Of a DNA stretch of 64,000 bases, positions 5,792 to 48,655 are shown piece after piece. The notes beneath the pieces were generated by a model. That model ran no database searches. It was not told the DNA's origin and worked only from the letters and a program-made list of their open reading frames with translations. Both the position numbers and the translations under genes were made by a program. Position 1 is the first letter of the stretch. Every line of letters begins with the position of its first letter. Source of the DNA: Phycisphaerae bacterium (GTDB lineage: Bacteria > Planctomycetota > Phycisphaerae > Phycisphaerales > Phycisphaeraceae). The stretch lies in NCBI GenBank assembly GCA_030425705.1, contig JAUHZU010000003.1, positions 186,001 through 250,000 of the forward strand. Reading direction: 5' to 3'.

Positions 5792-5808
5792 TAGGGTAGA
5801 CTGGGGTG

Positions 5809-6459
5809 ATGGCGGAAATGAAGCGACAAGGCATCCCGGTCATGCTGGACGTGTCGGGCTGGCGTGTGCTGATCGTCGGCGGCGGCGCGGTCGCGGCGCG
5901 GCGGGCCCGGGCGTTGGTCGATGCGGGGACGGTCGTGACTGTCATCGCGCCGGACATGGACGATCGCTTGGACGCGATGGATATCCAACGCGTGGTCGCC
6001 CGGTTCGACCCGTCGGCCCACGCCCTCGACACCTACCGCCTGGTCATCATCGCCACCGACGACGCCGCGGCCAACGCGTCGGTCTCGGCCGCGGTGGCCG
6101 GGCTGCCCCACCCGCCGCTGTGCAACCGCGCGGACGACGGCGATGCCGGGGACCTCTCGTTCATGGCCGGCCACCGCGACGGGCCGCTGACCCTCGCGGT
6201 CCACACCGGCGGGGCGTCCGCCTCGGCGGCGGCGGCGATCCGCGATGAACTGGCGGAGCGGGTTGATCCCGCCTGGCCGGACGTGCTGACGGTCGCTCGT
6301 GAAACGCGACAAGCGATCCAGCAACAGGTCACCGACCCCGCGAAACGCTCGGCCATGCTCCGGCGTCTCACCGACAGCGACGCCCTGGCCCGCTTTCGCG
6401 CCGGCGGGACCGACGCGCTGCGATCCCATTACCGGGATATCATGCGTGGCTCGGCCTAG
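5809..6459 (+). CDS. Precorrin-2 dehydrogenase / sirohydrochlorin ferrochelatase (siroheme synthase N-domain)
   Basis: A Met8/CysG-N type enzyme (216 aa) that oxidises precorrin-2 with NAD and inserts iron to form siroheme. Seen: an N-terminal Rossmann fold starting GIPVMLDVSGWRVLIVGGGAVAARRARAL, then LVIIATDDAAANASV, CNRADDGDAGDLSFMA and LAVHTGGASASAAAAIRDEL. No methyltransferase domain is attached. The ATG at 5809 is 6 nt after TAGACT (5797-5802) with no Shine-Dalgarno, so a leaderless mRNA is likely. ATG 5818 is the alternative start. The hemX-like and hemA genes follow closely, forming a tetrapyrrole operon. Confidence 0.9.
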   Translation: MAEMKRQGIPVMLDVSGWRVLIVGGGAVAARRARALVDAGTVVTVIAPDMDDRLDAMDIQRVVARFDPSAHALDTYRLVIIATDDAAANASVSAAVAGLPHPPLCNRADDGDAGDLSFMAGHRDGPLTLAVHTGGASASAAAAIRDELAERVDPAWPDVLTVARETRQAIQQQVTDPAKRSAMLRRLTDSDALARFRAGGTDALRSHYRDIMRGSA

Positions 6460-6480: not shown

Positions 6481-7389
6481 ATGACCGACACCGCTACCAG
6501 CATCCCGCTGATCCTCATGACCGCGCTCAGCGCCGCCGCCGCGACCCTCGCGGTCCGACGCCTCCGCGCGGCCCGGCCGCAAGAGCAGCGCCCCAACACC
6601 TCGCCCACGCAGCACCTGCTGGTCGGCCTCATCGCCGTGGGCTGTATCACGCTCCTCCTGCTGCGCTGGCTGCTGCTCTGGGAGTCATGGGAACCGCTGC
6701 ACGCGCACGTCGACGGGCTGTTGCTGATGTGCGCCTCGTTCGCGGGCGCGGTGCTCTACATCCAGACCCGCCCGAAGCTGCGCGGGCTGGCCGCGTTTGC
6801 GCTGCCGCTGCTGACGCTGATGCTCGCCTGGGCGATCTGCGCCTCGTTGTGGACGTACCGGCCGTTCCGGCTCGACACCCTCGAGCCCGCCTGGCTGGTG
6901 TTCCACACCACCAGCACGTACCTCGGCCTGCTGTGTTGTGCGCTCGGCGCGATCGGCGGGGCGATGTACCTCTACGTCCAGGGCCGGCTCAAGTCCAAGC
7001 ACGCCGTGCCCGGCCGGCTGGCGAGTCTGGAGACGCTGGAAACCCTGATCATCCGCGCCGCGACGCTCGGCTTCGTCCTGCTCACGCTCTCGCTGGTCTC
7101 GGGCGTCGTCCTGGTCACACGCGGGGAAGGCACCGCCCTGGGCATCGAGTGGTGGGTCTCGCCGAAGGTCATCCTCGCGACCCTTGCGTGGGCGGTGTAC
7201 GCGCTCTTGATGAACATCCGGCACGCCTCGGCGTTCCGCGGAAGGCGGGCGGCCTGGCTGGCGATCTTCGGCCTCGTCCTGCTGCTGGCGACCTACGGCA
7301 TCGTCGGGGCGATGGACAAGCAGACCGGCACGATCGACACGGCGTCATCGCTGAAGCGTGCGTCGGACACCGACCGGGGGGGTGACTGA
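6481..7389 (+). CDS. HemX/CcsA-like cytochrome c assembly membrane protein
   Basis: A 302-residue integral membrane protein with about eight hydrophobic segments, among them LLVGLIAVGCITLLLL, LLTLMLAWAICASLW, TYLGLLCCALGAIGGAMYLY and LAIFGLVLLLATYGIVGAM. The pattern fits the CcsA/CcmC/HemX family, including a late WWVSPKV segment and several histidines near membrane edges that could touch heme. It lies between the siroheme dehydrogenase gene and hemA and overlaps the hemA start (TGATG), as HemX does in other bacteria where it tunes HemA level. Whether it acts in heme control or in cytochrome c maturation cannot be read from sequence. Confidence 0.8.
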   Translation: MTDTATSIPLILMTALSAAAATLAVRRLRAARPQEQRPNTSPTQHLLVGLIAVGCITLLLLRWLLLWESWEPLHAHVDGLLLMCASFAGAVLYIQTRPKLRGLAAFALPLLTLMLAWAICASLWTYRPFRLDTLEPAWLVFHTTSTYLGLLCCALGAIGGAMYLYVQGRLKSKHAVPGRLASLETLETLIIRAATLGFVLLTLSLVSGVVLVTRGEGTALGIEWWVSPKVILATLAWAVYALLMNIRHASAFRGRRAAWLAIFGLVLLLATYGIVGAMDKQTGTIDTASSLKRASDTDRGGD

Positions 7390-8747
7390 TGCGCATCCTC
7401 ATGGTCGGCCTGAACCACCGGACCGCCGACGTCGCGGCGCGCGAGGCATTGGCGTTTGATGATGCCGGCGTCGCGGGGCTGCTGAGCCAACTGCGGGAGC
7501 GCTTCCCGATGTCCGAGGGGGTGGTGCTGTCGACCTGTAACCGTACCGAGCTCTACATCGCCCGGCCCGTCCACGCCGCGCCCTCGGCCGAAGAGGTACG
7601 CTCGCTCCTGGCCGAGCGCGGGGGGCTCGCGCCCGAAGTGCTGGCCTCGACGACGCTGCTGCGCGAGCAGGAGCAGGCGGCGCTGCACCTGTTCCACGTC
7701 TGTGCCGGGCTCGACTCGATGGTGCTCGGCGAGCCGCAGGTGCAGGGCCAGGTCCGCAAGGCCTACGAGCTCGCGCAGTCCCACGGGCTGGTCGGCCCGG
7801 TGCTGCACCGCCTGTTCCGCGGCGCACTCGCGGCCGGCAAAGAGGCGCGTAACCGCACGGGCATCGACGCCGGCCGGACATCGGTCAGCTCGGTGGCCGT
7901 GGCGTTTGCGCGCAACATCTTCGACCACTTCACCGACAAGAAGGTCGCGGTCATCGGTGCGGGCGAAATGATCAAGGGCGCGGCGCACGCGCTACTCCGC
8001 GAGGACCCGCAGGCGCTTTGGATCGTCAACCGCTCGCCGGGCCGGGCCCGGCAGCTCGCGCAGTCGGTATCCCCGGACGGTGCCCGGCCGGTCGCGATGC
8101 GCTCGTGGGACGACCTGGACACCGTGCTGGTCGAGGCGGATATCGTCGTGAGCTGTACCGGCGCGAACGAGCCGGTGGTGTCGGCCGACCGGTTCAGGCC
8201 GCTGCTCAAGCGCCGCCGCAACCGCCCGCTGTTCCTGGTGGACATGGCGGTGCCGCGCGACATCGACCCCGCGATCGGCGGTTTGAGCAACGTGTACCTC
8301 TACAACCTGGATGACCTTCAACAGGCCGTGGGCGTAACGACCGATGAGCGCCACGCCCAGCGCGAGCAGTGCGAGGCGATCCTGCACGAGCGATGCGCCC
8401 GCTGCATGGGCGAGATCCGCCACCGCGATCTGGGCAAGCTCGTCCAGCAGCTCCGCGCCCGGCTCAACGACATCGCCGACCAGGAGCAGCAGCGCACCCA
8501 GCGCAAGCTCGCTGCCCAGGGCGTGGTCAACGAGCGCCACGACGCGGTGATCCGCGAGCACAACCACCGGCTGATCAACAAGATCCTGCACCTGCCCCTG
8601 TCACAGCTCGACCGCAACGACCCGAACGCCCCGGTCGGGTTCTACGCCGCCGCGCTCCGTCGGCTGTTCGACCTGGACGACGAGCCGACGGTGCCTGGTG
8701 AAGGCGAGGGGTCTGAAGCGGGATCGGACCGCCAGGACGCGTCGTGA
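7389..8747 (+). CDS. hemA: Glutamyl-tRNA reductase HemA
   Basis: HemA reduces glutamyl-tRNA(Glu) with NADPH to glutamate-1-semialdehyde, the first committed step of C5 tetrapyrrole synthesis. The 452-residue protein shows MVGLNHRTADVAARE, the catalytic cysteine in STCNRTELY, GLDSMVLGEPQVQGQV, an NADP-binding fold (KKVAVIGAGEMIKG) and a C-terminal dimerisation helix with a charged, likely disordered tail. The ATG overlaps the stop of the HemX-like gene, so the two are translationally coupled. Confidence 0.96.
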   Translation: MRILMVGLNHRTADVAAREALAFDDAGVAGLLSQLRERFPMSEGVVLSTCNRTELYIARPVHAAPSAEEVRSLLAERGGLAPEVLASTTLLREQEQAALHLFHVCAGLDSMVLGEPQVQGQVRKAYELAQSHGLVGPVLHRLFRGALAAGKEARNRTGIDAGRTSVSSVAVAFARNIFDHFTDKKVAVIGAGEMIKGAAHALLREDPQALWIVNRSPGRARQLAQSVSPDGARPVAMRSWDDLDTVLVEADIVVSCTGANEPVVSADRFRPLLKRRRNRPLFLVDMAVPRDIDPAIGGLSNVYLYNLDDLQQAVGVTTDERHAQREQCEAILHERCARCMGEIRHRDLGKLVQQLRARLNDIADQEQQRTQRKLAAQGVVNERHDAVIREHNHRLINKILHLPLSQLDRNDPNAPVGFYAAALRRLFDLDDEPTVPGEGEGSEAGSDRQDAS

Positions 8748-21249: not shown

Positions 21250-22335
21250 TCAGGCCGTTGCGTCGTAGAGCGGCTTACCGGTCAGCGACAGGTAGGCGTC
21301 CTCCAGCGTTGGCTGGGCGACACGGATGCTCGCCGCCCGGTCGCCCGCCAGTTCCGCGACCTTGGGCACGGCCCCGGCCGCGTCGACCATCTCGACCCGC
21401 AGTGTCTGGTCGGTGGACGTGACGCCGGGCGACCCGGGCGACAAGCCCAACGCTGAAAGTATCCGGCCTGGCAGGCCGTCGGCCCCACCTTGAACCTCGT
21501 TGTCCCAACGCACCTCCAGCACCTGCCCGCCGACACGCGCGATCAGGCCTGTAGGCGTATCGACGGCGATCACCCGGCCCTGGGACAGCACGGCCAAACG
21601 ATCGCACAACGCCGCCTCGTGCATGAGGTGTGTCGTCAGCAACACGGTCAGCCCGTCGTCACGGACGCGCTCGCGCAGCGTCGCCCACAGGTCGCGTTGC
21701 GCTGCGGGGTCCAGCCCGGTCGAGGCCTCGTCCATCAGCAGAAGCCGGGGCGACGGCAGCAGGGCCTTGGCGATCTCGACCCGGCGGCGCATCCCGCCGC
21801 TGAACGCCTCAACGCGCTCGCCGGCCCGGCCATCCAGCCCGACCGAAGCGAGCATCGCGCTGGAGCGTTCCGCCAGCGTGCTGCCGGTGATCCCGTGGAG
21901 CATGCCGTGGTAGCGGAGGTTCTCGGCGGCGGTGAGCTTGTCGTCCAGGGACGGGTGCTGGAAGACTACGCCGATCTTGGCGCGGACGCCGGCGGGGTTG
22001 GCGTGGATGTCGGTGCCGAACACCGCGACGCTGCCGGGCTTCGCACCGGCGGGCGGGTTTGCCTGCTGGACGGTGGCGAGGATGCGGAAGAGGGTGGACT
22101 TGCCGCTGCCGTTAGGCCCGAGCAGACCGAAGACCTCGCCGGGGCGGACCTCCAGGGAGACGCCCTCGAGTGCGGCGCGGTCGGCCGCGGCTGCTGCCGG
22201 GGTGTTGCGTCTGCCACGAGTTCGTCGGGGCTTGAGGGCGGGGTAGACGTGCGAGAGGTCGTGGACCACGACGGCCGGGGCGGGGTCTGCGCTGGCGATG
22301 CTGTGCGGTGTGGCTTGTGGGGCGGTGGTGGTCAT
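21250..22335 (-). CDS. ABC transporter ATP-binding protein (CcmA/DrrA type) in the ctaA-ctaB operon
   Basis: A 361-residue ABC ATPase. It has Walker A LLGPNGSGKSTLFRIL, a Q-loop in GVVFQHPSLDDKLTAAENLR, signature EAFSGGMRRRVEIAKAL, Walker B RLLLMDEASTGLD and an H-loop in LLTTHLMHEA. A C-terminal DUF4162-like extension follows (GQVLEVRWDNE, then QPTLEDAYLSLTGKPL), as in DrrA-type exporters. The start overlaps the ctaB stop (ATGA), so it is translated as part of ctaA-ctaB. The expected permease gene is not adjacent: pabB follows after 341 bp. Its partner must be elsewhere. Confidence 0.9.
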   Translation of the reverse strand: MTTTAPQATPHSIASADPAPAVVVHDLSHVYPALKPRRTRGRRNTPAAAAADRAALEGVSLEVRPGEVFGLLGPNGSGKSTLFRILATVQQANPPAGAKPGSVAVFGTDIHANPAGVRAKIGVVFQHPSLDDKLTAAENLRYHGMLHGITGSTLAERSSAMLASVGLDGRAGERVEAFSGGMRRRVEIAKALLPSPRLLLMDEASTGLDPAAQRDLWATLRERVRDDGLTVLLTTHLMHEAALCDRLAVLSQGRVIAVDTPTGLIARVGGQVLEVRWDNEVQGGADGLPGRILSALGLSPGSPGVTSTDQTLRVEMVDAAGAVPKVAELAGDRAASIRVAQPTLEDAYLSLTGKPLYDATA

Positions 22336-23378
22336 ACGCGGTCGATCAGCATCGCGGCCATCACCACCGGGAGGTAGACCAGGGAGGCGAAGAACAGTCG
22401 TCGGGCGTTCGCGCGGGTCGGCCGAGCCACCAGCGCGACCGCGAAGGCGAGGAAGCCCAGCCCGCACAGCAGCGCCACGACGTAGTAGCCGCGTCCGCTG
22501 ACACCCAGCGCGGTGGGCAGCAGGCCGATGGGCAGCATGAGCAGGCAGCCGATCAGTGTCTGGCGGAACGTGCGGGTGCCGGTCGGGTCGATGACCGGGA
22601 GCATCGCGAGCTTCGCCCTGGCGTATTCGTCGCGGTAGAGCCACGCGATCGCGAGGAAGTGGGGCACCTGCCAGACGAACATGATGGCAAACAATAGCCA
22701 GGCCGCGGGGCCGAGCGTGCCCATGGCGTCGAGCCCGGCGGTGCCGAACAACGAGGGCGTCGCGGTCGCGGCGGCGTAGCCGATCATCGGCGGCATCGCG
22801 CCGGGCACCGCGCCGACCAGCAGGGCGACGCTGCTGGTCCGCTTCATGGGTGTGTAGACCCACGCGTAGCTGACGATCGTGAACGCGCTCAGCACCGCCG
22901 CCAGCACCAGCCCGGAGCCCGCGAGCAGCCCGACGCCGGCGACCGCGAGGACGAGCCCGACGGCGTTCGCCGATGCGGGGGTGACCCGGCCGGCGGCGAC
23001 GGGGCGGTTGCGGGTCCGCTTCATCAGCGCGTCGGTGTCGCGTTCGTAGGCCTGGTTGAACGCGCTCGCGGCCATGCACGACAGCGCCGTGCCGACCATC
23101 GCGACCAGGAAGACCGCCCAGGGCGTGTCGCGCCACCCGCCGGGCAGGGCCATGTAAAACCCGATCGCCGCGGTGATGACGACCATGCGTGTGATGCGGG
23201 GCTTGATGAGCTGCTTGAAGTCCGCGAAACGCGTCGGCACCGCGGCCGAGCCCGGCGCGTCCTCGGCCAGCGGCGACCGCTCGGCGGGCGGGTCCACCGG
23301 GTCGTAGGGCGAGGGGACGTGCGCCGCCTGGTCGGCGGGGCTGGCCAGCACCCGGATTGTGTCGGTGGCTTGGCTCAT
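22332..23378 (-). CDS. ctaB: Protoheme IX farnesyltransferase (heme O synthase) CtaB
   Basis: CtaB attaches farnesyl to heme b to make heme O for cytochrome oxidase. The 348-residue protein has a long polar N-terminus (about 55 residues) and then a UbiA-type core with FADFKQLIKPRITRMVVIT, NQAYERDTDALMKRTRNRPV (substrate-binding Asn/Asp motif), YTPMKRTSSVALLVGAVPGA and WQVPHFLAIAWLYRDEYA. About nine membrane helices are predicted. It overlaps ctaA upstream and the ABC gene downstream by ATGA. Confidence 0.95.
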   Translation of the reverse strand: MSQATDTIRVLASPADQAAHVPSPYDPVDPPAERSPLAEDAPGSAAVPTRFADFKQLIKPRITRMVVITAAIGFYMALPGGWRDTPWAVFLVAMVGTALSCMAASAFNQAYERDTDALMKRTRNRPVAAGRVTPASANAVGLVLAVAGVGLLAGSGLVLAAVLSAFTIVSYAWVYTPMKRTSSVALLVGAVPGAMPPMIGYAAATATPSLFGTAGLDAMGTLGPAAWLLFAIMFVWQVPHFLAIAWLYRDEYARAKLAMLPVIDPTGTRTFRQTLIGCLLMLPIGLLPTALGVSGRGYYVVALLCGLGFLAFAVALVARPTRANARRLFFASLVYLPVVMAAMLIDRV

Positions 23379-24583
23379 GCGGGCGTGGGGGTGGTGCGCG
23401 GCGGCGGGGCGTCGGCCGGTGTGTAAGCCGGCTGGGGCCGGCTGGCCTCGGCCGACTCGGGTCCGTGGGTCGGCCGGTACCCCGCCAAGTGTACCCGGAC
23501 GGCGAGCCAGGTGGCGGTCGCGATCAGCAGGGCGCCGGTCGCCTGGTGCATCGTCGCGGCGAAGACATCCGTCTCGGTCATCACCGTGATCGCGCCCAGC
23601 GAGACCTGCAGCACGAACAGCGACAGCAGCAGCAGGGCCGGTGTCAGCAGCAGCCGCTGGTCGAGCCTGCTCCGCAGCGTCATCACCACCAGCGTGATGC
23701 CCGCGATAAGCAGGGTGTACGCCCAAACGCGGTGGGCGAACTGCAGGTGTACCTTCCAGACCGGCACGACGACCGTGTTGTTGCGCGGCGAGCGGTTGCT
23801 CCACCCCGCGGCGGTGGCCTCCTCGATCGTCAGGCCGAACCGCTCGGCGTGGTAGGCGAGGTAGGCCTCGTCCAGCGCGTCCTGGCTCATCGGCGGGAGG
23901 ACCTGGCTGTAGTGCAAGGGAAAATCGGGCAGGGACTTGTCGGCCTTGTAGTGACGCACCGCCGCGCCGAGCGTGAGCTGCACGAATAGCGCCGCGAGCA
24001 TCGCCAGCGTGAACCAACGCAGCCGACGCGGGGCCTGGCCGGGCCGGTCCCGACGCAGCGCTGCGACACGCTCGACCCACGGCCGGCTCAACGCCGCGGC
24101 AACCAGCACCCAGAGGCAGAGGATGATCTGCCCATTGATCCCGTGGATGAACGCGATCGCGATCTCGTTGAAGTCAACTCGGAACGCGCCGAGCGCGCCC
24201 TGGATACAGACGAGGACCAGCATCAATACGCCCGACCATCGGAGGACAGGGCGGGCCTTCTGCGTCCGCCAGAGCCATACCGCCATGGCGATCGTGAGCA
24301 TGCCGACGACATTGCCCTGCAGCCGGTGGGTGTGTTCCCAGAACGTGCCGAACTCGTGCCACCACTCCGACGGCGGGGCGAACAGTGACCACCAGCCGAA
24401 GGTGAACCACCCATCGGGTACGGCCATGCCGGATTCGGTGCTGGTGACGTGCCCGCCGATGGCGACCAGCGCGAACGTCGCGGTGAGGACGACGAAGCTG
24501 AACCGGTGCAGCCACCGACGGTAGACCGGGGCGTCGGCAAGGGGTTCGGGGTCGGTCGTGGGGGGGGCAGCTTTGCTGGGCAT
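23375..24583 (-). CDS. ctaA: Heme A synthase CtaA
   Basis: CtaA oxidises heme O to heme A. The 402-residue protein has eight predicted membrane helices and the conserved histidine motifs: GGHVTSTESGMAVPDGW, the EHTHRLQGN helix, AFIHGINGQIILC, and later LQFAHRVWAYTLL and TMHQATGALLIATATW. The Pro/Thr-rich C-terminus is unconserved. The ATG at 24583 gives MPSKAAPPTTDPEP. TATAAT on the minus strand (24617-24622) lies about 33 bp upstream. First gene of the ctaA-ctaB-ABC operon, divergent from cimA. Confidence 0.94.
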   Translation of the reverse strand: MPSKAAPPTTDPEPLADAPVYRRWLHRFSFVVLTATFALVAIGGHVTSTESGMAVPDGWFTFGWWSLFAPPSEWWHEFGTFWEHTHRLQGNVVGMLTIAMAVWLWRTQKARPVLRWSGVLMLVLVCIQGALGAFRVDFNEIAIAFIHGINGQIILCLWVLVAAALSRPWVERVAALRRDRPGQAPRRLRWFTLAMLAALFVQLTLGAAVRHYKADKSLPDFPLHYSQVLPPMSQDALDEAYLAYHAERFGLTIEEATAAGWSNRSPRNNTVVVPVWKVHLQFAHRVWAYTLLIAGITLVVMTLRSRLDQRLLLTPALLLLSLFVLQVSLGAITVMTETDVFAATMHQATGALLIATATWLAVRVHLAGYRPTHGPESAEASRPQPAYTPADAPPPRTTPTPA

Positions 24584-24616
24584 GGCGTCGGGCCGGGGTC
24601 GTTGGCCGAGCCGGGC

Positions 24617-24622
24617 ATTATA
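24617..24622 (-). promoter_or_regulatory. -10 element of the ctaA operon
   Basis: Consensus TATAAT on the minus strand. No clear -35 element is visible. It lies back to back with the cimA leader promoter. Confidence 0.45.
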
Positions 24623-24640
24623 ACCCCGGGAATCCCCCCG

Positions 24641-24669
24641 TTGGCGTTTTCGGCCCGGGCGGGTATCCT
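24641..24669 (+). promoter_or_regulatory. Promoter of the cimA leader
   Basis: TTGGCG (24641-24646), a 17-bp spacer and TATCCT (24664-24669) predict transcription start at about 24676, the first base of the leader-peptide ATG. Confidence 0.6.
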
Positions 24670-24675
24670 TTGGGC

Positions 24676-24732
24676 ATGCTTCAGGCCAACGCACAGATCG
24701 CCGCGATTCTGGCTATGACCCCTCCGCGATAG
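24676..24732 (+). CDS. Predicted cimA leader peptide (18 aa)
   Basis: A short frame ATG...TAG encodes MLQANAQIAAILAMTPPR. It holds two Ile codons (ATC, codon 8; ATT, codon 11) and Leu codons (CTT, codon 2; CTG, codon 12), set among Ala codons. Isoleucine is the end product of the cimA pathway. The frame ends just before the first alternative RNA arm and 32 nt before an intrinsic terminator. The ATG is at the predicted transcription start, so the peptide would be translated from a leaderless mRNA. No homologue is claimed. Confidence 0.6.
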   Translation: MLQANAQIAAILAMTPPR

Positions 24733-29090: not shown

Positions 29091-29141
29091 CGATCAGCCG
29101 GCGTGGGTGCCCGGCACACCGTTCACACCGTGGGAGGACGC

Positions 29142-29723
29142 ATGAAATACAAGTGTGATAAATGCGACCGTCCCGCCACCCACCACGCGGTGGTCCGCGT
29201 CAAGGGGCAGAACATCCAGAAGCGGCTGTGCGAGCAGCACGCCGCCGAAGAAGGCCTGCCGATCAAGTCTGCGCACGCCCCGATCAACGAGCTGCTCACC
29301 AACTTCATCAAGATGGCCGACGGGCAGTCCCAGCCCTCGGACAAGATCAAGCCCGCCGCCGCGACGCGTCGCGACCGGGCCTGCCCCGACTGCGGGCTTA
29401 AGTTCAGCGACTTCCGCGACAAGTCCCTGCTCGGCTGCTCGGGCTGCTACAAGGCCTTCGAGAAGGCGCTCATCCCGCTGCTCGAGCGGGCCCACGAGGG
29501 CGGCGCGCAGCACGTCGGCAAGGTGCCCCGGCGCAGCGGCGGCGGTGAGCAGCGACAGCTCCAGATCGCTCGCATCCGCAAACGCCTGGACGAGGCCGTC
29601 ACCGCCGAGAACTACGAGCTCGCCGCACAGCTCCGCGACGACCTGACCGGCATGGAGTCGGGCAACGCCCCGGCCGCGCCGCGCCAGCTCGACCCCGGCA
29701 CCCCCGAGGACGACCGGCCGTGA
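29142..29723 (+). CDS. mcsA: McsA-like activator of protein arginine kinase
   Basis: McsA binds and activates McsB, which marks proteins with phospho-arginine for ClpCP. The 193-residue protein has an N-terminal zinc site (KYKCDKCDRPATHHAVV, then RLCEQHA), a second zinc site (CPDCGLKFSDFRDKSLLGCSGCY) and a C-terminal UVR motif (RIRKRLDEAVTAENYELAAQ LRDDL). The ATG at 29142 follows GGGAGGA. It overlaps mcsB by GTGA. This two-gene order is that of Firmicutes and planctomycetes, here without ctsR or clpC next to it. Confidence 0.92.
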   Translation: MKYKCDKCDRPATHHAVVRVKGQNIQKRLCEQHAAEEGLPIKSAHAPINELLTNFIKMADGQSQPSDKIKPAAATRRDRACPDCGLKFSDFRDKSLLGCSGCYKAFEKALIPLLERAHEGGAQHVGKVPRRSGGGEQRQLQIARIRKRLDEAVTAENYELAAQLRDDLTGMESGNAPAAPRQLDPGTPEDDRP

Positions 29724-30781
29724 CACTACGCGACATCAGCCGCGGCGCCGGCGAGTGGCTGCGCGGGTCCGGCCCGCACAGCGACGTCGTCATCTCCTCG
29801 CGCGTCCGGTTCGCCCGCAACCTCGCCGGCTTCCCCTTTGTCAACCGCGCGAACCGTCGGCAGCGCTACGAGGTCCTCGAGTCCTGCCGCAGCCAGATCA
29901 TGACCAACCGGCTGGCGGACAACACCCTCTGGGTCCAGCTCGCCGACAGCCCCGCGATCGACCGCCAGCTCCTGGTCGAGCGGCACCTGATCTCCCGCGA
30001 CCTCGCGCGGCGTACCGCCGACATCCCCCGCGCCGTCGCCATCGCCGCCGACGAGACCTTCGCCATCATGGTCAACGAGGAGGACCACCTGCGCATCCAG
30101 GTCCTCCGCAGCGGCATGCAGCTCGGCGACGCCTACTCACAGATCAACCGCATCGACGACATCCTCGAAGAAAAGCTCGACTTCGCCTTCTCCAAACGCT
30201 TCGGCTACCTCACCGCTTGCCCGACCAACGTCGGCACGGGTGTCCGCGTCAGCGTGATGATGCACCTGCCCGCGCTGAAGCTCACCGGCGAGATCGACAA
30301 GGTCAAGCGCGCTGCCCGCGACATGCACCTGGCCGTCCGCGGGCTCTTCGGCGAGGGGTCCGAGGCGCTGGGCGACCTCTACCAGATCTCCAACCAGACC
30401 ACGCTGGGCAAGACCGAGAAAGAAACGCTCGCCGATTTCGAGGCCGCCGTCATCCCGCAGATCATCGCCTACGAGCACCAGGCCCGGCAGGCGCTGCTCC
30501 GCCAGCGCGAGAAGCAACTCGACGACCGCGTCTGGCGTGCATGGGCCCTGCTCAACAACGCCCGCGTGCTCGGCACCGACGAGGCCCTGCAGCTACTCAG
30601 CCACGTCCGCCTGGGCATCCACACCTCCCGCCTGGACCGCGTGGATATCCGCACCCTCAACGAACTGCTCCTGCTCTGCCAGCCCGCGCACCTGCAGAAG
30701 GTCACCGGCCAGGAGATGACCCCCGCCGCCAGACGCATCGCCCGCGCCGACCTGATGCGCCAGCGTCTGGGCGGGCGGTAG
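29720..30781 (+). CDS. mcsB: Protein arginine kinase McsB
   Basis: McsB phosphorylates arginine residues of damaged or regulatory proteins. The 353-residue protein has a phosphagen-kinase domain: DVVISSRVRFARNLAGFPF, FAIMVNEEDHLRIQVL, GYLTACPTNVGTGVRVSVMM and QISNQTTLGKTEKETL. A C-terminal helical domain of McsB type includes LLSHVRLGIHTSRLDRVD, TLNELLLLCQPAHLQK and ARADLMRQRL. The GTG at 29720 overlaps the mcsA stop (GTGA), so the pair is translationally coupled. Confidence 0.95.
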   Translation: MTLRDISRGAGEWLRGSGPHSDVVISSRVRFARNLAGFPFVNRANRRQRYEVLESCRSQIMTNRLADNTLWVQLADSPAIDRQLLVERHLISRDLARRTADIPRAVAIAADETFAIMVNEEDHLRIQVLRSGMQLGDAYSQINRIDDILEEKLDFAFSKRFGYLTACPTNVGTGVRVSVMMHLPALKLTGEIDKVKRAARDMHLAVRGLFGEGSEALGDLYQISNQTTLGKTEKETLADFEAAVIPQIIAYEHQARQALLRQREKQLDDRVWRAWALLNNARVLGTDEALQLLSHVRLGIHTSRLDRVDIRTLNELLLLCQPAHLQKVTGQEMTPAARRIARADLMRQRLGGR

Positions 30782-41406: not shown

Positions 41407-41886
41407 GTGATCACCACGAAAGACAACGATACGAAAGAGCCCTGGTACGGCGACGGGCTCAGCTTCTCCTGCACGCAGTGCGGCAACTGCTGCACCGGGC
41501 CGTCGGGCTACGTCTGGTTTGACGAGGACGAGGCCCGGGCGATGGCGGACTACCTGAAGATCGATATCGCCGAGTTCTACAGCCGGTACACGGCCAAGGC
41601 GCTCGGCCGGCGGACGCTCGGCGAGGTCCGGCGGGACAAGAAGCACTACGACTGTGTGTTCCTGGTCGAGACGGGCGCGGGCAAGCGGGTGTGCGGGGTG
41701 TACCCGGTGCGGCCGACGCAGTGCCGGACCTGGCCCTTCTGGCCGAGCAACCTCAAGTCGCGCCGGGCGTGGGAGGCCGCGGCCGTGTCGTGCCCGGGGA
41801 TGCGCGACCCCGAGGCACGCGGGTCGGGCTTCGTGCCGATCGAAGAGGTCCGCGTCCGCCTCGAAGAGAACCCCGACCACCTGTAA
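41407..41886 (+). CDS. YkgJ-family cysteine-cluster protein
   Basis: A 159-residue YkgJ/CxxCxxCC protein, thought to bind zinc or an iron-sulfur cluster. Seen: FSCTQCGNCCTGPSGYVWF (CxxCxxCC), ARAMADYLKIDIAEFYSRYT, a conserved YDCVFL, and CGVYPVRPTQCRTWPFWP. TACAAT (41395-41400) lies 6 nt before the GTG at 41407 and there is no Shine-Dalgarno, so it is probably leaderless. A second related gene follows directly. Function not established in the family. Confidence 0.85.
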   Translation: MITTKDNDTKEPWYGDGLSFSCTQCGNCCTGPSGYVWFDEDEARAMADYLKIDIAEFYSRYTAKALGRRTLGEVRRDKKHYDCVFLVETGAGKRVCGVYPVRPTQCRTWPFWPSNLKSRRAWEAAAVSCPGMRDPEARGSGFVPIEEVRVRLEENPDHL

Positions 41887-41950
41887 GCGGTCGGATGTGT
41901 TGGGCCACCCCTTTGGACCCGCCGCCGCGTCGCACGCGGCGGAACACCTC

Positions 41951-42562
41951 ATGGCCGACCCCAGCCCCGCCGATCTCTGGACCACCTGGCACGACGCGGC
42001 GCAGGCCGGCGCGATCGACCGGTCCATCCGCGCGCTTTACGCCGACCTCGACCGGGCCGTGCGCGACGCGCCCAACGGGCCCCACGGCCCGCCGGTCTGC
42101 AACGCCAGTGGCCGGTGCTGCCGGTTCGACACCTACGGCCACCGGCTTTACGTCACCGGCCTGGAGATCGCGTGGTTCTTGTCTCGGCTCTCGGGACCCG
42201 GGTCTCGGGTCTCGGTCGAGTCACACACGATGCCGGACGCGTCACCGAATCTTCCCTTGACGGTGATCGCATCCAGTCCCGGTATGCAGGATGCGTCCTC
42301 CAAGCCCCGAGGCCCGGTCCCCGCAACCCGCCTCCCCGACGCCTGCCGATACCAGGTCGATGGCCTATGTTCGACGCACACGGTCCGCCCGATGGGCTGC
42401 CGGGTCTTCTTCTGCACGCCGGGCACGGACGACTGGCAGCACGCGGTGTATGAGCGCTTTCTGGACCGTCTGCGCGCGTTGCACGCCGAGCACGACCTGC
42501 CGTACCGCTATATGGAGTGGCGGGCCGGGCTGGTCGAGGCCGATGGCTGTCTGCGTGGTTAG
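41951..42562 (+). CDS. Second YkgJ-like cysteine-cluster protein with an internal insertion
   Basis: A 203-residue relative of the preceding gene: PPVCNASGRCCRFDTYGHRL near 52-71, then RLPDACRYQVDGLCSTHTVR and MGCRVFFCTPGTD. The first motif is CNASGRCC, looser than CxxCxxCC. Between FLSRL and RLPDACRY about 45 residues rich in Ser/Pro are inserted, coded by sequence with GGGTCTCGGGTCTCGG-like repeats, absent from usual family members. The ATG at 41951 is chosen because upstream in-frame sequence overlaps the first gene. A 65-bp gap separates the two. Confidence 0.8.
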   Translation: MADPSPADLWTTWHDAAQAGAIDRSIRALYADLDRAVRDAPNGPHGPPVCNASGRCCRFDTYGHRLYVTGLEIAWFLSRLSGPGSRVSVESHTMPDASPNLPLTVIASSPGMQDASSKPRGPVPATRLPDACRYQVDGLCSTHTVRPMGCRVFFCTPGTDDWQHAVYERFLDRLRALHAEHDLPYRYMEWRAGLVEADGCLRG

Positions 42563-43927: not shown

Positions 43928-45067
43928 ATGCCTACCTCGACCGCCCCCGACGTCCCCTACAGCATCGACGACCCGGTCAACCGCAGGATCCTCGCGGTCT
44001 CCGAGGACCGGATCGCCGGCTTCACACGCACCCCGCTGGAAGACATCGCCAAGCAGTCCGGCGTCGACCTCGACACCGTCATCGCCCGCATCGGCTCGAT
44101 GCTCCAACACGGCACGATCCGTCGGGTCCGCCAGACCCTGCTCACCACCTCGCTCGCGCCAGGCGCGCTCATCGCCTGGCAGGTCCCCCCCAAGCACCTG
44201 CTCGACGCGTTCGAGTACATGTCCAAGGAAGACCCGTTCTCCGGCCACGTCGTCCTGCGCACCACCGACAAGGAGACCCCGGGCAGCGCCTACAAGCTCT
44301 GGACCACCCTCAAGGTCCCCGTTGGTTTTTCGATGGACCAGCATTGCCGGCTGCTCATGGATAAGACCGGCGCGACGACGTACAAGCTCCTGCCCGCAAA
44401 GAAGCTCTTCGCGCTCGGGGTCGGGCACGTCCGACGCAAGACCATCGAGCCGGGCGCACGGACCGACGAGCCCGGGCGGGTGCTGGACACGACGGTCGTC
44501 GAGCTGGACGACGCCGAGTGGAACGTCTTGATGTCGCTCAAGCGCGAGTTCGCGCCCGAGGAGCTTGGGCCCAACCTTTGGGCCGGACGCGCCCGAGAGG
44601 CCGGCGTCCCGCTGGAGACGTTCTGCACGATCGCTGAATCGCTCGCCGAGCGCAAGCTCATCGGTCGGTTCTCGACGTTCCTCGAGCATGTGAAGAAGCA
44701 CAAGGACGGCAGCCGGGTCACGCGGTTCAACGCGTTGTTCCACTGGCGTGTGCCCAAGAGCAGGGAACTCGAAGCCGGCATCGAGGTCGGCCGGCACCAC
44801 TGCATGACCCACGCCTACTGGCGCGAGGGCGGCGAAGAGTTCAGCAACGTCAACATCATGGGCGTCTCGCACGGCACGGACAAGGACCGCGTCCTCGAAC
44901 ACAAGCAGGCCATCGACGACCACCTCGAAGAAGCCGGGATCAAGGTCGAATATACCAACGTGTTCTGGGGCGGCAAGAGCGAGATCAAGCCGAGCGAAAT
45001 CGCCCCGCAGGCGTACATGGACTGGTGTAAGTCGGTGGGCGTCGACCCGGAGGCGATGCGGGGGTGA
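43928..45067 (+). CDS. Siroheme decarboxylase-like protein (two AhbA/AhbB-type domains)
   Basis: A 379-residue protein made of two Lrp/AsnC-like halves. The first (about 15-110) has an HTH (ILAVSEDRIAGFTRTPLEDI AKQSG) and a beta domain. The second begins near 195 with LDDAEWNVLMSLKREF and has KLIGRFSTFLEHV, TRFNALFHWRVPKSRELEAG, EVGRHHCMTHAYWREGG and SNVNIMGVSHG, which matches the HCY...W-Y-N...M-HG pattern of AhbB/NirH siroheme decarboxylases. These remove two carboxyl groups of siroheme in alternative heme synthesis. TACAAT lies 6 nt before the ATG, so it is likely leaderless. A transcription regulator of Lrp type is the alternative reading. Confidence 0.7.
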   Translation: MPTSTAPDVPYSIDDPVNRRILAVSEDRIAGFTRTPLEDIAKQSGVDLDTVIARIGSMLQHGTIRRVRQTLLTTSLAPGALIAWQVPPKHLLDAFEYMSKEDPFSGHVVLRTTDKETPGSAYKLWTTLKVPVGFSMDQHCRLLMDKTGATTYKLLPAKKLFALGVGHVRRKTIEPGARTDEPGRVLDTTVVELDDAEWNVLMSLKREFAPEELGPNLWAGRAREAGVPLETFCTIAESLAERKLIGRFSTFLEHVKKHKDGSRVTRFNALFHWRVPKSRELEAGIEVGRHHCMTHAYWREGGEEFSNVNIMGVSHGTDKDRVLEHKQAIDDHLEEAGIKVEYTNVFWGGKSEIKPSEIAPQAYMDWCKSVGVDPEAMRG

Positions 45068-46749: not shown

Positions 46750-47961
46750 ATGACCATCCTCCACCTCATCACGCGCCTGATCTTCGGCGGGGCGCAGCAC
46801 AACACGGTGATGACGTGTGCGGCGCAGGCGGCTGCGGGGCACGAGGTTCACCTGGCGATCGGACCCACCTACGGGCCGGAGGGCTCTCTGGTCGCCGAAG
46901 CGGAGCAGGCCGGGGCGGTCATGCACCACATCCCGTCGCTGGTGCGTGAGGCGAGCCCGTTGATGGACTGGCGCTGCTACCGCGCGCTGCGTCGGCTGAT
47001 CCGCGAGGTGGAGCCGGATGTGGTGCACACGCATTCGAGCAAGGCGGGGATCGTCGGCCGTGCCGCGGCGTGGAAAGAGGGGGGCAAACGTGGCAGGCGG
47101 GCGGTGGTGCACACGGTCCACGGGCTGGGCTTCAACGACCGGCAGCGTCCGATCGTTCGCCGTCTGTACATCGGCCTGGAGCGCTACGCGGCGAAGCGGT
47201 GCCACCGGCTGATCGCGATCACACCGCAGATGATCGATGCGTTCGAGCAGCACCGTATCGCACCCCGCGACCGGTTCACCGTCGTGCCCAGCGGCGTGCA
47301 GCTCGACCGCTTCGGCCCCAGCCCGGCAGGGACACGGGAGCAGGTGCGCGAACGTTACGCGATCCCACAGGATGCTTTCGTCGTCGGCCTGCTCGGCCGG
47401 CTGGATGCGCTCAAAGGCCAGCGCGACCTGATCGACATCTACCCACGCCTTGCCGAGCGGCTGCAGAAGAAGCACCCCTCTCGGCCGGTCCACCTGCTCT
47501 TCATCGGCGACGGGTTCGACCGGGCGAACGTCGAGCACGCCATCGCGGAGGCCGGGCTCGCCGGGCGTGCCACCATCACGGGGCTGGTGCCGTACGACCA
47601 GATCGCCCGGGTCCTGTCGACGGTGGATGTGAGCGTGCTGCCGTCGTACCAGGAGGGCCAGAGCCGCACGCTGGTGGAGTCACTGTTGTGTGGGGTGCCG
47701 GTGGTCGGGTACGCGGCGGGCGGGATCCCGTCGATCATCCGCGAGGGGGTGACGGGCCGGCTGGTGCCGGTCGGCGACAAGCCGGCGTTGGTGGACGCGG
47801 TAGTCGGTGTCCTGACTGAGCCCGACCAGGCGCGCTGGATGACCGAAGCGGGTGCGGCGCATGTGCGCAAGCGGTTCGATGTGGCGACGATGGCCGAGTC
47901 GATCCGGGGCGTCTACGATCTCGCGTGTGCCGACGCGGCGAAACGACTCCACGGCAGGTAG
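46750..47961 (+). CDS. GT4-family glycosyltransferase
   Basis: A 403-residue GT-B glycosyltransferase. It has LITRLIFGGAQHNTVMTCAA, VVHTHSSKAGIVGRAAAWKE, FTVVPSGVQLDRFGP, VVGLLGRLDALKGQRDLIDI, LLFIGDGFDRANVEHAI and the GT4 motif SVLPSYQEGQSRTLVESLLC GVPVVGYAAGGIP. The donor and acceptor cannot be told. It resembles capsule/exopolysaccharide enzymes more than BshA. A 10-bp gap separates it from a BshB1-like deacetylase gene, so the two are probably co-transcribed. Confidence 0.88.
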   Translation: MTILHLITRLIFGGAQHNTVMTCAAQAAAGHEVHLAIGPTYGPEGSLVAEAEQAGAVMHHIPSLVREASPLMDWRCYRALRRLIREVEPDVVHTHSSKAGIVGRAAAWKEGGKRGRRAVVHTVHGLGFNDRQRPIVRRLYIGLERYAAKRCHRLIAITPQMIDAFEQHRIAPRDRFTVVPSGVQLDRFGPSPAGTREQVRERYAIPQDAFVVGLLGRLDALKGQRDLIDIYPRLAERLQKKHPSRPVHLLFIGDGFDRANVEHAIAEAGLAGRATITGLVPYDQIARVLSTVDVSVLPSYQEGQSRTLVESLLCGVPVVGYAAGGIPSIIREGVTGRLVPVGDKPALVDAVVGVLTEPDQARWMTEAGAAHVRKRFDVATMAESIRGVYDLACADAAKRLHGR

Positions 47962-47971
47962 AGCAGACACC

Positions 47972-48655
47972 ATGGCGAATATCCTCGTAGCAGGCCCGCA
48001 CCCCGACGATCAGGAACTGGGTATGGGCGGGACCATCATCCGCCTCGCGCAGCAGGGGCACAACGTGTTGCTGCTGGACATGACCAATGGCGAGCCGACG
48101 CCGCTGGGGTCACCCGAGCAGCGCGAGCGCGAGTGGACCGCCGCGGCGGAGATCATGGGTGTGAAGCGGAAGCTGCTCGGCCTGAAAAACCGCGAGGTGC
48201 AGCACACGCTCGAGGCGCGCCATGCCACGGCCGGGGTGATCCGCGAGCACCAGGCGGACATCCTCTTTGTTCCCTACGAACAGGACGCCCACCCCGACCA
48301 CCGCGCCGTTACGCGCATCGTCGAAGACGCGCGTTTCGACGCGAAGCTCACCAAGACCGACCTGCCCGGCGAGCCGTGCTACCCCAAGTGGCTGTTCTAC
48401 TACTACGCGACGCATCTGCGCTGGGTCGCCGACCCGTCGTTCCTGATCGACATCACCGGGCAGATGGACGACAAGGAGCGTGCGATCAAGGCCTACGAGA
48501 CGCAGTTCGTGCTGCCCGAGAAGAACCGCCGGGTCGTGGAATGGGTCCGCGAGTTCAACGGCTACATGGGCAGCCGGATCGGCGTGCGCTACGCCGAGCC
48601 GTTCTACACGAAGGAGCCGGTCGGTCTGGGCTCATTCGATGGGCTGGTGTTGTAG
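47972..48655 (+). CDS. PIG-L family deacetylase, BshB1-like
   Basis: A 227-residue zinc-dependent LmbE/PIG-L deacetylase. Metal and catalytic motifs are GPHPDDQELGMGGTIIRLAQ near the start and YEQDAHPDHRAVTRIVED in the middle, with AAEIMGVKRKLLGLKNREVQ between. The phrases GMGGTI, AAEIMGV and RIGVRYAEPF are close to BshB1, which deacetylates GlcNAc-malate in bacillithiol synthesis. The upstream GT4 is not clearly BshA and no bshC is seen, so a cell-envelope role is possible. Confidence 0.85.
   Translation: MANILVAGPHPDDQELGMGGTIIRLAQQGHNVLLLDMTNGEPTPLGSPEQREREWTAAAEIMGVKRKLLGLKNREVQHTLEARHATAGVIREHQADILFVPYEQDAHPDHRAVTRIVEDARFDAKLTKTDLPGEPCYPKWLFYYYATHLRWVADPSFLIDITGQMDDKERAIKAYETQFVLPEKNRRVVEWVREFNGYMGSRIGVRYAEPFYTKEPVGLGSFDGLVL

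Follow-up and report, generated by a model that had tools for sequence, protein, structure and literature searches.

Three heme pathways have been described. The described systems closest to the locus studied here include the siroheme decarboxylases AhbA and AhbB, in which, according to the part of the work of Palmer et al. that we draw on, a HXYXR motif is conserved; AhbA has an iron-ligating histidine and an arginine, and AhbB a catalytic arginine whose replacement by alanine inactivates the enzyme (PMC4145669). For NirDL two essential histidines are reported in the title of a work cited in PMC4835899. An earlier note on this DNA regarded a fused AhbAB as unusual. That view cannot be upheld, as the fusion has been published for most heme-making archaea (PMC3942049; PMC11237513) and NirDL (4ch7, 4czc) is a single chain too. 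A further system is Haloferax volcanii. In PMC5746218 it is described as making heme without uroD, cgoX and cpfC and as relying on PitA/ChdC when grown aerobically and on AhbD when grown anaerobically; the authors do not exclude an as-yet-undescribed route to coproheme.

The window, i.e. the whole stretch of 64,000 nucleotides that was analysed, belongs to a Phycisphaerae genome of 21 contigs and contains a gene for a single-chain protein of this type (the query). The gene and its parts are as follows:

43928 to 45067, plus strand: fused siroheme-decarboxylase-like protein (the query), two AsnC/Lrp-fold halves, 379 aa
43973 to 44422, plus strand: half A, AhbA-like, HTH and ligand-binding domain, residues 16-165 (NCBIfam AhbA match 32-165; secondary structure)
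44246 to 44260, plus strand: motif A, residues 107-111, H-V-V-L-R (a variant of HXYXR in which Val takes the place of Tyr)
44501 to 44998, plus strand: half B, AhbB-like, HTH and ligand-binding domain, residues 192-357 (NCBIfam AhbB match 219-338; VIA-align to 4czd_B 191-360)
44810 to 44824, plus strand: motif B, residues 295-299, H-A-Y-W-R (intact HXYXR)

The ORF starts with an ATG at 43928 and is uninterrupted up to the stop at 45067. The motifs HHCMTHAYW and NIMGVSHG are both present as quoted in the earlier note, and its description of tandem Lrp-like halves resembling AhbA and AhbB agrees with the family models: Pfam AsnC_trans_reg2 matches the protein twice (E 4e-16, over the cut-off), NCBIfam AhbA falls on the first half and AhbB on the second, and the predicted fold is that of NirDL. 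Both NCBIfam matches miss the equivalog cut-off, with 44.5 bits compared to 140 for AhbA and 67.4 bits compared to 125 for AhbB. The HXYXR motif is intact in half B only. Given the missed cut-offs, the H-V-V-L-R in half A and the placement in a clade of its own (see below), the query is, judged by its sequence, not a canonical AhbAB. In the source genome it is the sole match to itself at E ≤ 0.001.

We modelled the query with AlphaFold2 from 41 sequences, comprising the window protein and loci from a scan of genome contigs, and obtained a mean pLDDT of 89. The top Foldseek entries for the predicted model were NirDL 4ch7 and 4czc (E 2e-18 and 1e-17). VIA-align gave Z scores of 25.7 (over 303 aligned residues) and 25.4 for the same two entries, compared to 9.7 for the next one. 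The comparison with AhbA/AhbB that had been proposed as a check thus led to NirDL as the nearest structure, with half B aligning to 4czd_B. Pfam, the model, Foldseek and VIA-align all describe the two halves as AsnC/Lrp-type units forming a barrel, as in siroheme decarboxylases. In the profile alignment with 4ch7, H107 and R111 are matched to HNYER (its His and Arg), and H295, Y297 and R299 to HCYQR (its His, Tyr and Arg). The His and Arg residues of the siroheme site, whose conservation the earlier note had asked about, are therefore kept: all five positions, Y297 included, are the same in each of the 41 relatives. V109, which stands at the place of the half A tyrosine, is likewise Val in all 41, and K354 is Lys in 39 of the 41.

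These observations bear on a different reading of the protein, namely that it is a heme- or siroheme-sensing Lrp/AsnC regulator or a tetrapyrrole carrier, and that heme is taken up or is made with a ferrochelatase that has escaped recognition. The AsnC/Lrp fold and the HTH-like segments present in both halves (Pfam, predicted model) would suit a regulator, as would the regulators among the next structural neighbours and the fact that the gene stands alone; the Pfam match to the NirDL-like HTH is below its cut-off. However, the enzyme fold is nearest by far (Z 25.7 versus at most 9.7 for other families), and residues of the enzyme's catalytic site, beyond those for ligand binding, are kept in 41 of 41 relatives. 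The exclusion of ferrochelatase and the company of SirC reported below are also what one would expect of a pathway enzyme. We consider a regulator or carrier unlikely.

Relatives of the query are widespread. We found at least 542 of them in the scan of genome contigs, and the best 80 of these loci show about 60-80% identity to the query, most of them 60-71%, far beyond chance. By their contig titles the best 80 loci cover at least nine phyla: Planctomycetota, Verrucomicrobiota, Gemmatimonadota, Actinomycetota, Chloroflexota, Acidobacteriota, Abditibacteriota, Armatimonadota and Eremiobacterota/Vulcanimicrobiota. In our sample of the order 46 of 151 genomes match the query at E ≤ 1e-5; 45 of them have a close copy (at least 55% identity, some clipped at contig ends) and one (G073) has a distant paralogue only. 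The query family forms a clade apart from the canonical fused AhbAB in the tree, with a branch length of 5 between them. Copies from Nitriliruptoria are nested inside those of Phycisphaeraceae (98% SH-aLRT). On the sequences, this suggests acquisition by transfer; foreign contigs in the bins are a possible source as well.

The distant paralogue, encountered in about a dozen genomes of the order, is the canonical fused AhbAB, and the genes of these paralogues adjoin AhbC/NirJ1-like and TIGR04053 radical SAM genes. At one Phycisphaeraceae locus (L074:5091-7677) there is a divergent radical SAM pair, one gene of which scores 492 bits for NirJ1 and 490 bits for AhbC, both under the cut-off, and the other passes TIGR04053 with 446 bits. 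With NirDL as the closest structure one might expect a NirDL-type heme d1 enzyme for cytochrome cd1 nitrite reductase. Such a role is extremely improbable and we rejected it, as 18 query carriers of family f1 are without a NirJ/AhbC-like gene and, where relatives have such genes, they go with the canonical AhbAB paralogue and not with the query. The source genome has no NirJ/AhbC-like match.

We then compared the distribution of the query with that of the known late heme enzymes. HemE was searched with TIGR01464 at E ≤ 1e-30 and ferrochelatase with PF00762, and the source genome gave no match to either. The pathway check laid down in the earlier note expected hemE and hemH to be absent and ahbC and ahbD to be present. 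The first half proved right, but ahbC and ahbD are absent from the source genome as well: it shows weak generic radical SAM matches only, and its sole match to the AhbC model (50 bits) is MoaA. A flow of siroheme toward heme, as envisaged there, is plausible in a genome without HemE and ferrochelatase, and the combination named as speaking against it, a full classic pathway together with an unconserved siroheme site, was not found. Across family f1 HemE occurs in 4 of 51 genomes, none of them a tested query carrier, and ferrochelatase in 5 of 51; ferrochelatase occurs in 10 of 151 genomes across the order. No tested genome of the order sample has both the query gene and ferrochelatase. For families f1 and f6 taken together (45 f1 and 9 f6 genomes; the ferrochelatase-positive G155 and G156 were left out) we counted ferrochelatase in 0 of 45 carriers versus 6 of 9 non-carriers (p 3e-6, shared ancestry ignored). 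Among 26 carriers reached via the genome-contig scan, mostly from other phyla, 23 are without ferrochelatase and 3 have it. AhbC/D-like genes of at least 170 bits were found in 8 of these 26, with one weaker match, and 15 have neither ferrochelatase nor AhbC/D-like genes, genome completeness not being given for this set.

Could the ordinary Ahb pathway be at work, with AhbC and AhbD lost in assembly gaps or diverged past the models? The 21 contigs of the source genome leave room for gaps, and an AhbC-like gene is present in 25 of 51 f1 genomes (391-490 bits, all under the 650-bit cut-off). Against this, the genes are absent from all five genomes of the genus, the single-contig G058 among them. 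Furthermore 18 f1 carriers, the source genome included, have no HemE, HemH, AhbC-like or AhbD-like genes, and 13 of the 18 are at least 90% complete. Hidden AhbC and AhbD genes are thus very unlikely.

The argument from absence is weakened by families f2-f5. They are without the query, SirC (0/15) and AhbC/D (0/14), and ferrochelatase is mostly absent too, so that a genome without ferrochelatase need not, for that reason alone, depend on the query. These Phycisphaerales may be heme auxotrophs that rely on uptake, or may use yet another route. For the regulator or carrier reading they count as a point in favour, since relatives without most known routes indicate that auxotrophy or an unrecognised chelatase may exist nearby. 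Near-complete genomes such as G012 and G033 belong to this group, which is without the query, SirC and AhbC/D and for the most part without ferrochelatase. In family f1, G094 (95% complete) is without the query, HemE, ferrochelatase, AhbC/D-like genes and a PF06778 protein and keeps SirC.

The window itself holds the following genes for tetrapyrrole supply and heme use:

5806 to 6459, plus strand: precorrin-2 dehydrogenase (SirC / CysG N-terminal domain), supply of the siroheme branch (TIGR01470, 77 bits, cut-off 62.3)
6481 to 7389, plus strand: CcsB/HemX-like membrane protein, flanked by sirC and hemA (TIGR03144, 69.8 bits, below the cut-off of 187.6)
7389 to 8747, plus strand: glutamyl-tRNA reductase HemA (TIGR01035, 361 bits, over the cut-off)
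22332 to 23330, minus strand: UbiA-family prenyltransferase adjoining ctaA, probably CtaB (heme O synthase), start provisional (PF01040, 169 bits)
23375 to 24694, minus strand: heme A synthase CtaA, a heme consumer (PF02628, 140 bits)

The family models at 5806-6459, 7389-8747 and 23375-24694 bear out that a siroheme-branch enzyme, hemA and ctaA share the window. For ctaB, also named in the earlier note, the UbiA-family gene adjoins ctaA as ctaB would, but its identity is only probable. The window also contains cysH.

In the order 35 carriers and 23 non-carriers were tested for SirC; 33 and 5 of them, respectively, have it (Fisher p 1e-8, with no correction for ancestry). The non-carriers with SirC are 4 of 6 in f1 and 1 of 2 in f6, with 0 of 15 in f2-f5. 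Within f1 and f6 alone the association is weak (33/35 carriers versus 5/8 non-carriers, p 0.04), thus much of the order-wide association follows family lines. Of 22 tested carriers from the genome-contig scan 15 pass the SirC cut-off; the remaining 7, all titled as Verrucomicrobia or their groups, have no canonical SirC (3 without a match, 4 at 31 bits). In all three cases that were fetched the 31-bit match lies inside the hemA ORF. A Verrucomicrobium carrier without SirC (L217) has a CobA-HemD fusion (306 bits) after hemC. An actinobacterial locus (L212) shows an operon with sirC, hemC and hemB, the latter two confirmed by models.

The SirC data are central to a further reading, in which the query family would turn iron-uroporphyrin(ogen) III into coproheme directly by acting on all four acetates, with ChdC finishing and with neither a siroheme intermediate nor an AhbC-like step. 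This would account for the dispensable AhbC and for the Verrucomicrobia carriers without canonical SirC. NirDL has been crystallised with iron-uroporphyrin III (4czc), and the query family stands apart as a clade and has an altered half A motif. On the other hand, SirC goes with the query gene in nearly all tested carriers of the order, and even the Verrucomicrobium without SirC retains its CobA-HemD fusion. The enzymes known from this group work on two of siroheme's acetates, and a chelatase for uroporphyrin would be required. We judge the direct conversion to be quite unlikely.

For the last step to heme b we considered a divergent ChdC-like protein (PF06778) encoded elsewhere in the source genome:

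contig C9, 117492 to 117803: divergent ChdC-like protein (PF06778)

Of 51 f1 genomes 43 encode a PF06778 protein, and so do 17 of the 18 f1 carriers without HemE, HemH, AhbC-like and AhbD-like genes. Its C-terminal half aligns to HemQ/ChdC structures including the His region, and a His and a Tyr are invariant in 7 of 7 sequences; its scores are far below the NCBIfam HemQ cut-offs. The best evidence comes from gene order. A UDPGP-family gene, the only neighbour of the ChdC-like gene that was singled out, adjoins the slot in 12 of 12 fetched loci (L097:5808-7271; L088, L090-L096, L100-L102) and served as a synteny marker. In two genomes, G130 and G118, the slot beside the same UDPGP gene is filled by a HemQ-type protein, and this in-place swap makes the divergent protein a candidate ChdC. 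We treat the protein on C9 as a putative coproheme decarboxylase.

The surroundings of the query gene offered no further partner. ORF clustering around 80 loci of the query family revealed no gene neighbour common across phyla, and a Pfam scan that covered 111 of the 128 closest flanking ORFs (17 were left out) revealed none either. The flavin reductase directly upstream is syntenic in Phycisphaeraceae, yet it is found in 130 of the 151 sampled genomes of the order, irrespective of whether they carry the query, and was rejected. CtaA lies near the query gene in three f6 loci (L044, L064, L068) and in the window, not generally, and was rejected as a standing neighbour. ABC1-kinase genes adjoin the query-family gene in 3 loci. 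In operons of the SirC region we found the familiar hem genes, but no gene that suggested itself for the missing AhbC step. Other features of the window were recorded in passing. Upstream of the query are a CxxCxxCC (putative Zn/Fe-chelating) protein at 41407-41886 and, at 41945-42562, a second cysteine-rich ORF without a Pfam match, both syntenic in Phycisphaeraceae. At 46750-48655 a GT4 glycosyltransferase is followed by a PIG-L deacetylase, adjoining truA; we take this pair to resemble the BshA-BshB (bacillithiol-type) pair. McsA and McsB, a protein-arginine kinase pair, stand in tandem at 29103-30781.

With ctaA present, HemE, HemH and AhbC/D absent and SirC, the query and the ChdC-like protein present, the simplest account is a route from siroheme over didecarboxysiroheme and coproheme to heme. 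We consider it moderately probable that the query is a siroheme decarboxylase in such a route, which would probably be oxygen-tolerant and in which another, yet-to-be-found enzyme would take the AhbC step. We infer the activity of the query and the order of the steps as follows. Uroporphyrinogen III would be converted to siroheme with the SirC of the window, and the query would convert siroheme to didecarboxysiroheme. An enzyme other than AhbC would then produce coproheme; for this step we can see no enzyme in the source genome. The divergent ChdC-like protein would form heme b, and CtaA would make heme A from it. By analogy with the published enzymes, the two ferredoxin-like domains of the query would come together as a barrel with siroheme in its cavity, the iron being bound by H107 and/or H295. 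R299, together with Y297 and H295, would decarboxylate the acetate side chains at C12 and C18.

The query family forms a clade of its own, it and ferrochelatase exclude each other, and in some relatives it coexists with canonical AhbAB/AhbC-like clusters. These features suggest that it is the counterpart, tolerant of oxygen, to the anaerobic Ahb route. The presence of both the query gene and a canonical cluster in some relatives would fit an aerobic/anaerobic pair. A broader proposal is a fourth, oxygen-compatible heme route without HemH-type ferrochelatase, HemE, AhbC and AhbD: the query family would decarboxylate siroheme (or iron-uroporphyrin), another enzyme or the query itself would lead to coproheme and ChdC would end the route, in at least nine phyla and partly through gene transfer. 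We advance it tentatively, as a real possibility short of our preferred expectation. In the titles and abstracts that our searches of open-access literature listed we found no description of such a route or of the query family. The carriers appear to fit none of the described pathways, being without the protoporphyrin- and coproporphyrin-route enzymes searched for and often without both siroheme-route radical SAM enzymes. If the proposal is true, bacteria of many phyla make heme via a step nobody has found, and the lack of a ferrochelatase in a carrier genome should not count as heme auxotrophy. The set to be tested is small: one decarboxylase, one divergent ChdC and one missing enzyme.

NirDL of Hydrogenobacter thermophilus (4ch7, 4czc) is, like the query, a single chain of two AsnC/Lrp-type halves, each with a His in the corresponding position, and with HXYXR in half B. 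The query differs from it in sequence (20% identity), in the H-V-V-x-R of half A and in an insertion after that motif; it also has no partner pathway genes nearby and its genome is without AhbC/NirJ-like genes. With AhbA/AhbB of Desulfovibrio desulfuricans (4czd, 4un1) the query shares the AhbA His and Arg and the AhbB His, Tyr and Arg, as given in the portion of PMC4145669 considered here, whereas those proteins are two subunits and the query is one chain below both equivalog cut-offs. The fused AhbAB of archaea and of the Phycisphaeraceae paralogue (L075) has the same A-B fusion order as the query. The paralogue passes both cut-offs, with 257 and 235 bits for AhbA and AhbB, and keeps its radical SAM neighbours, whereas the query belongs to a separate clade. 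In Haloferax volcanii, according to PMC5746218, HemE, CgoX and a coproporphyrin ferrochelatase are reported absent and ChdC forms the aerobic end; it keeps AhbC and AhbD, whereas the source genome is without both. By this analogy Haloferax volcanii may serve as a partial precedent for the proposed route.
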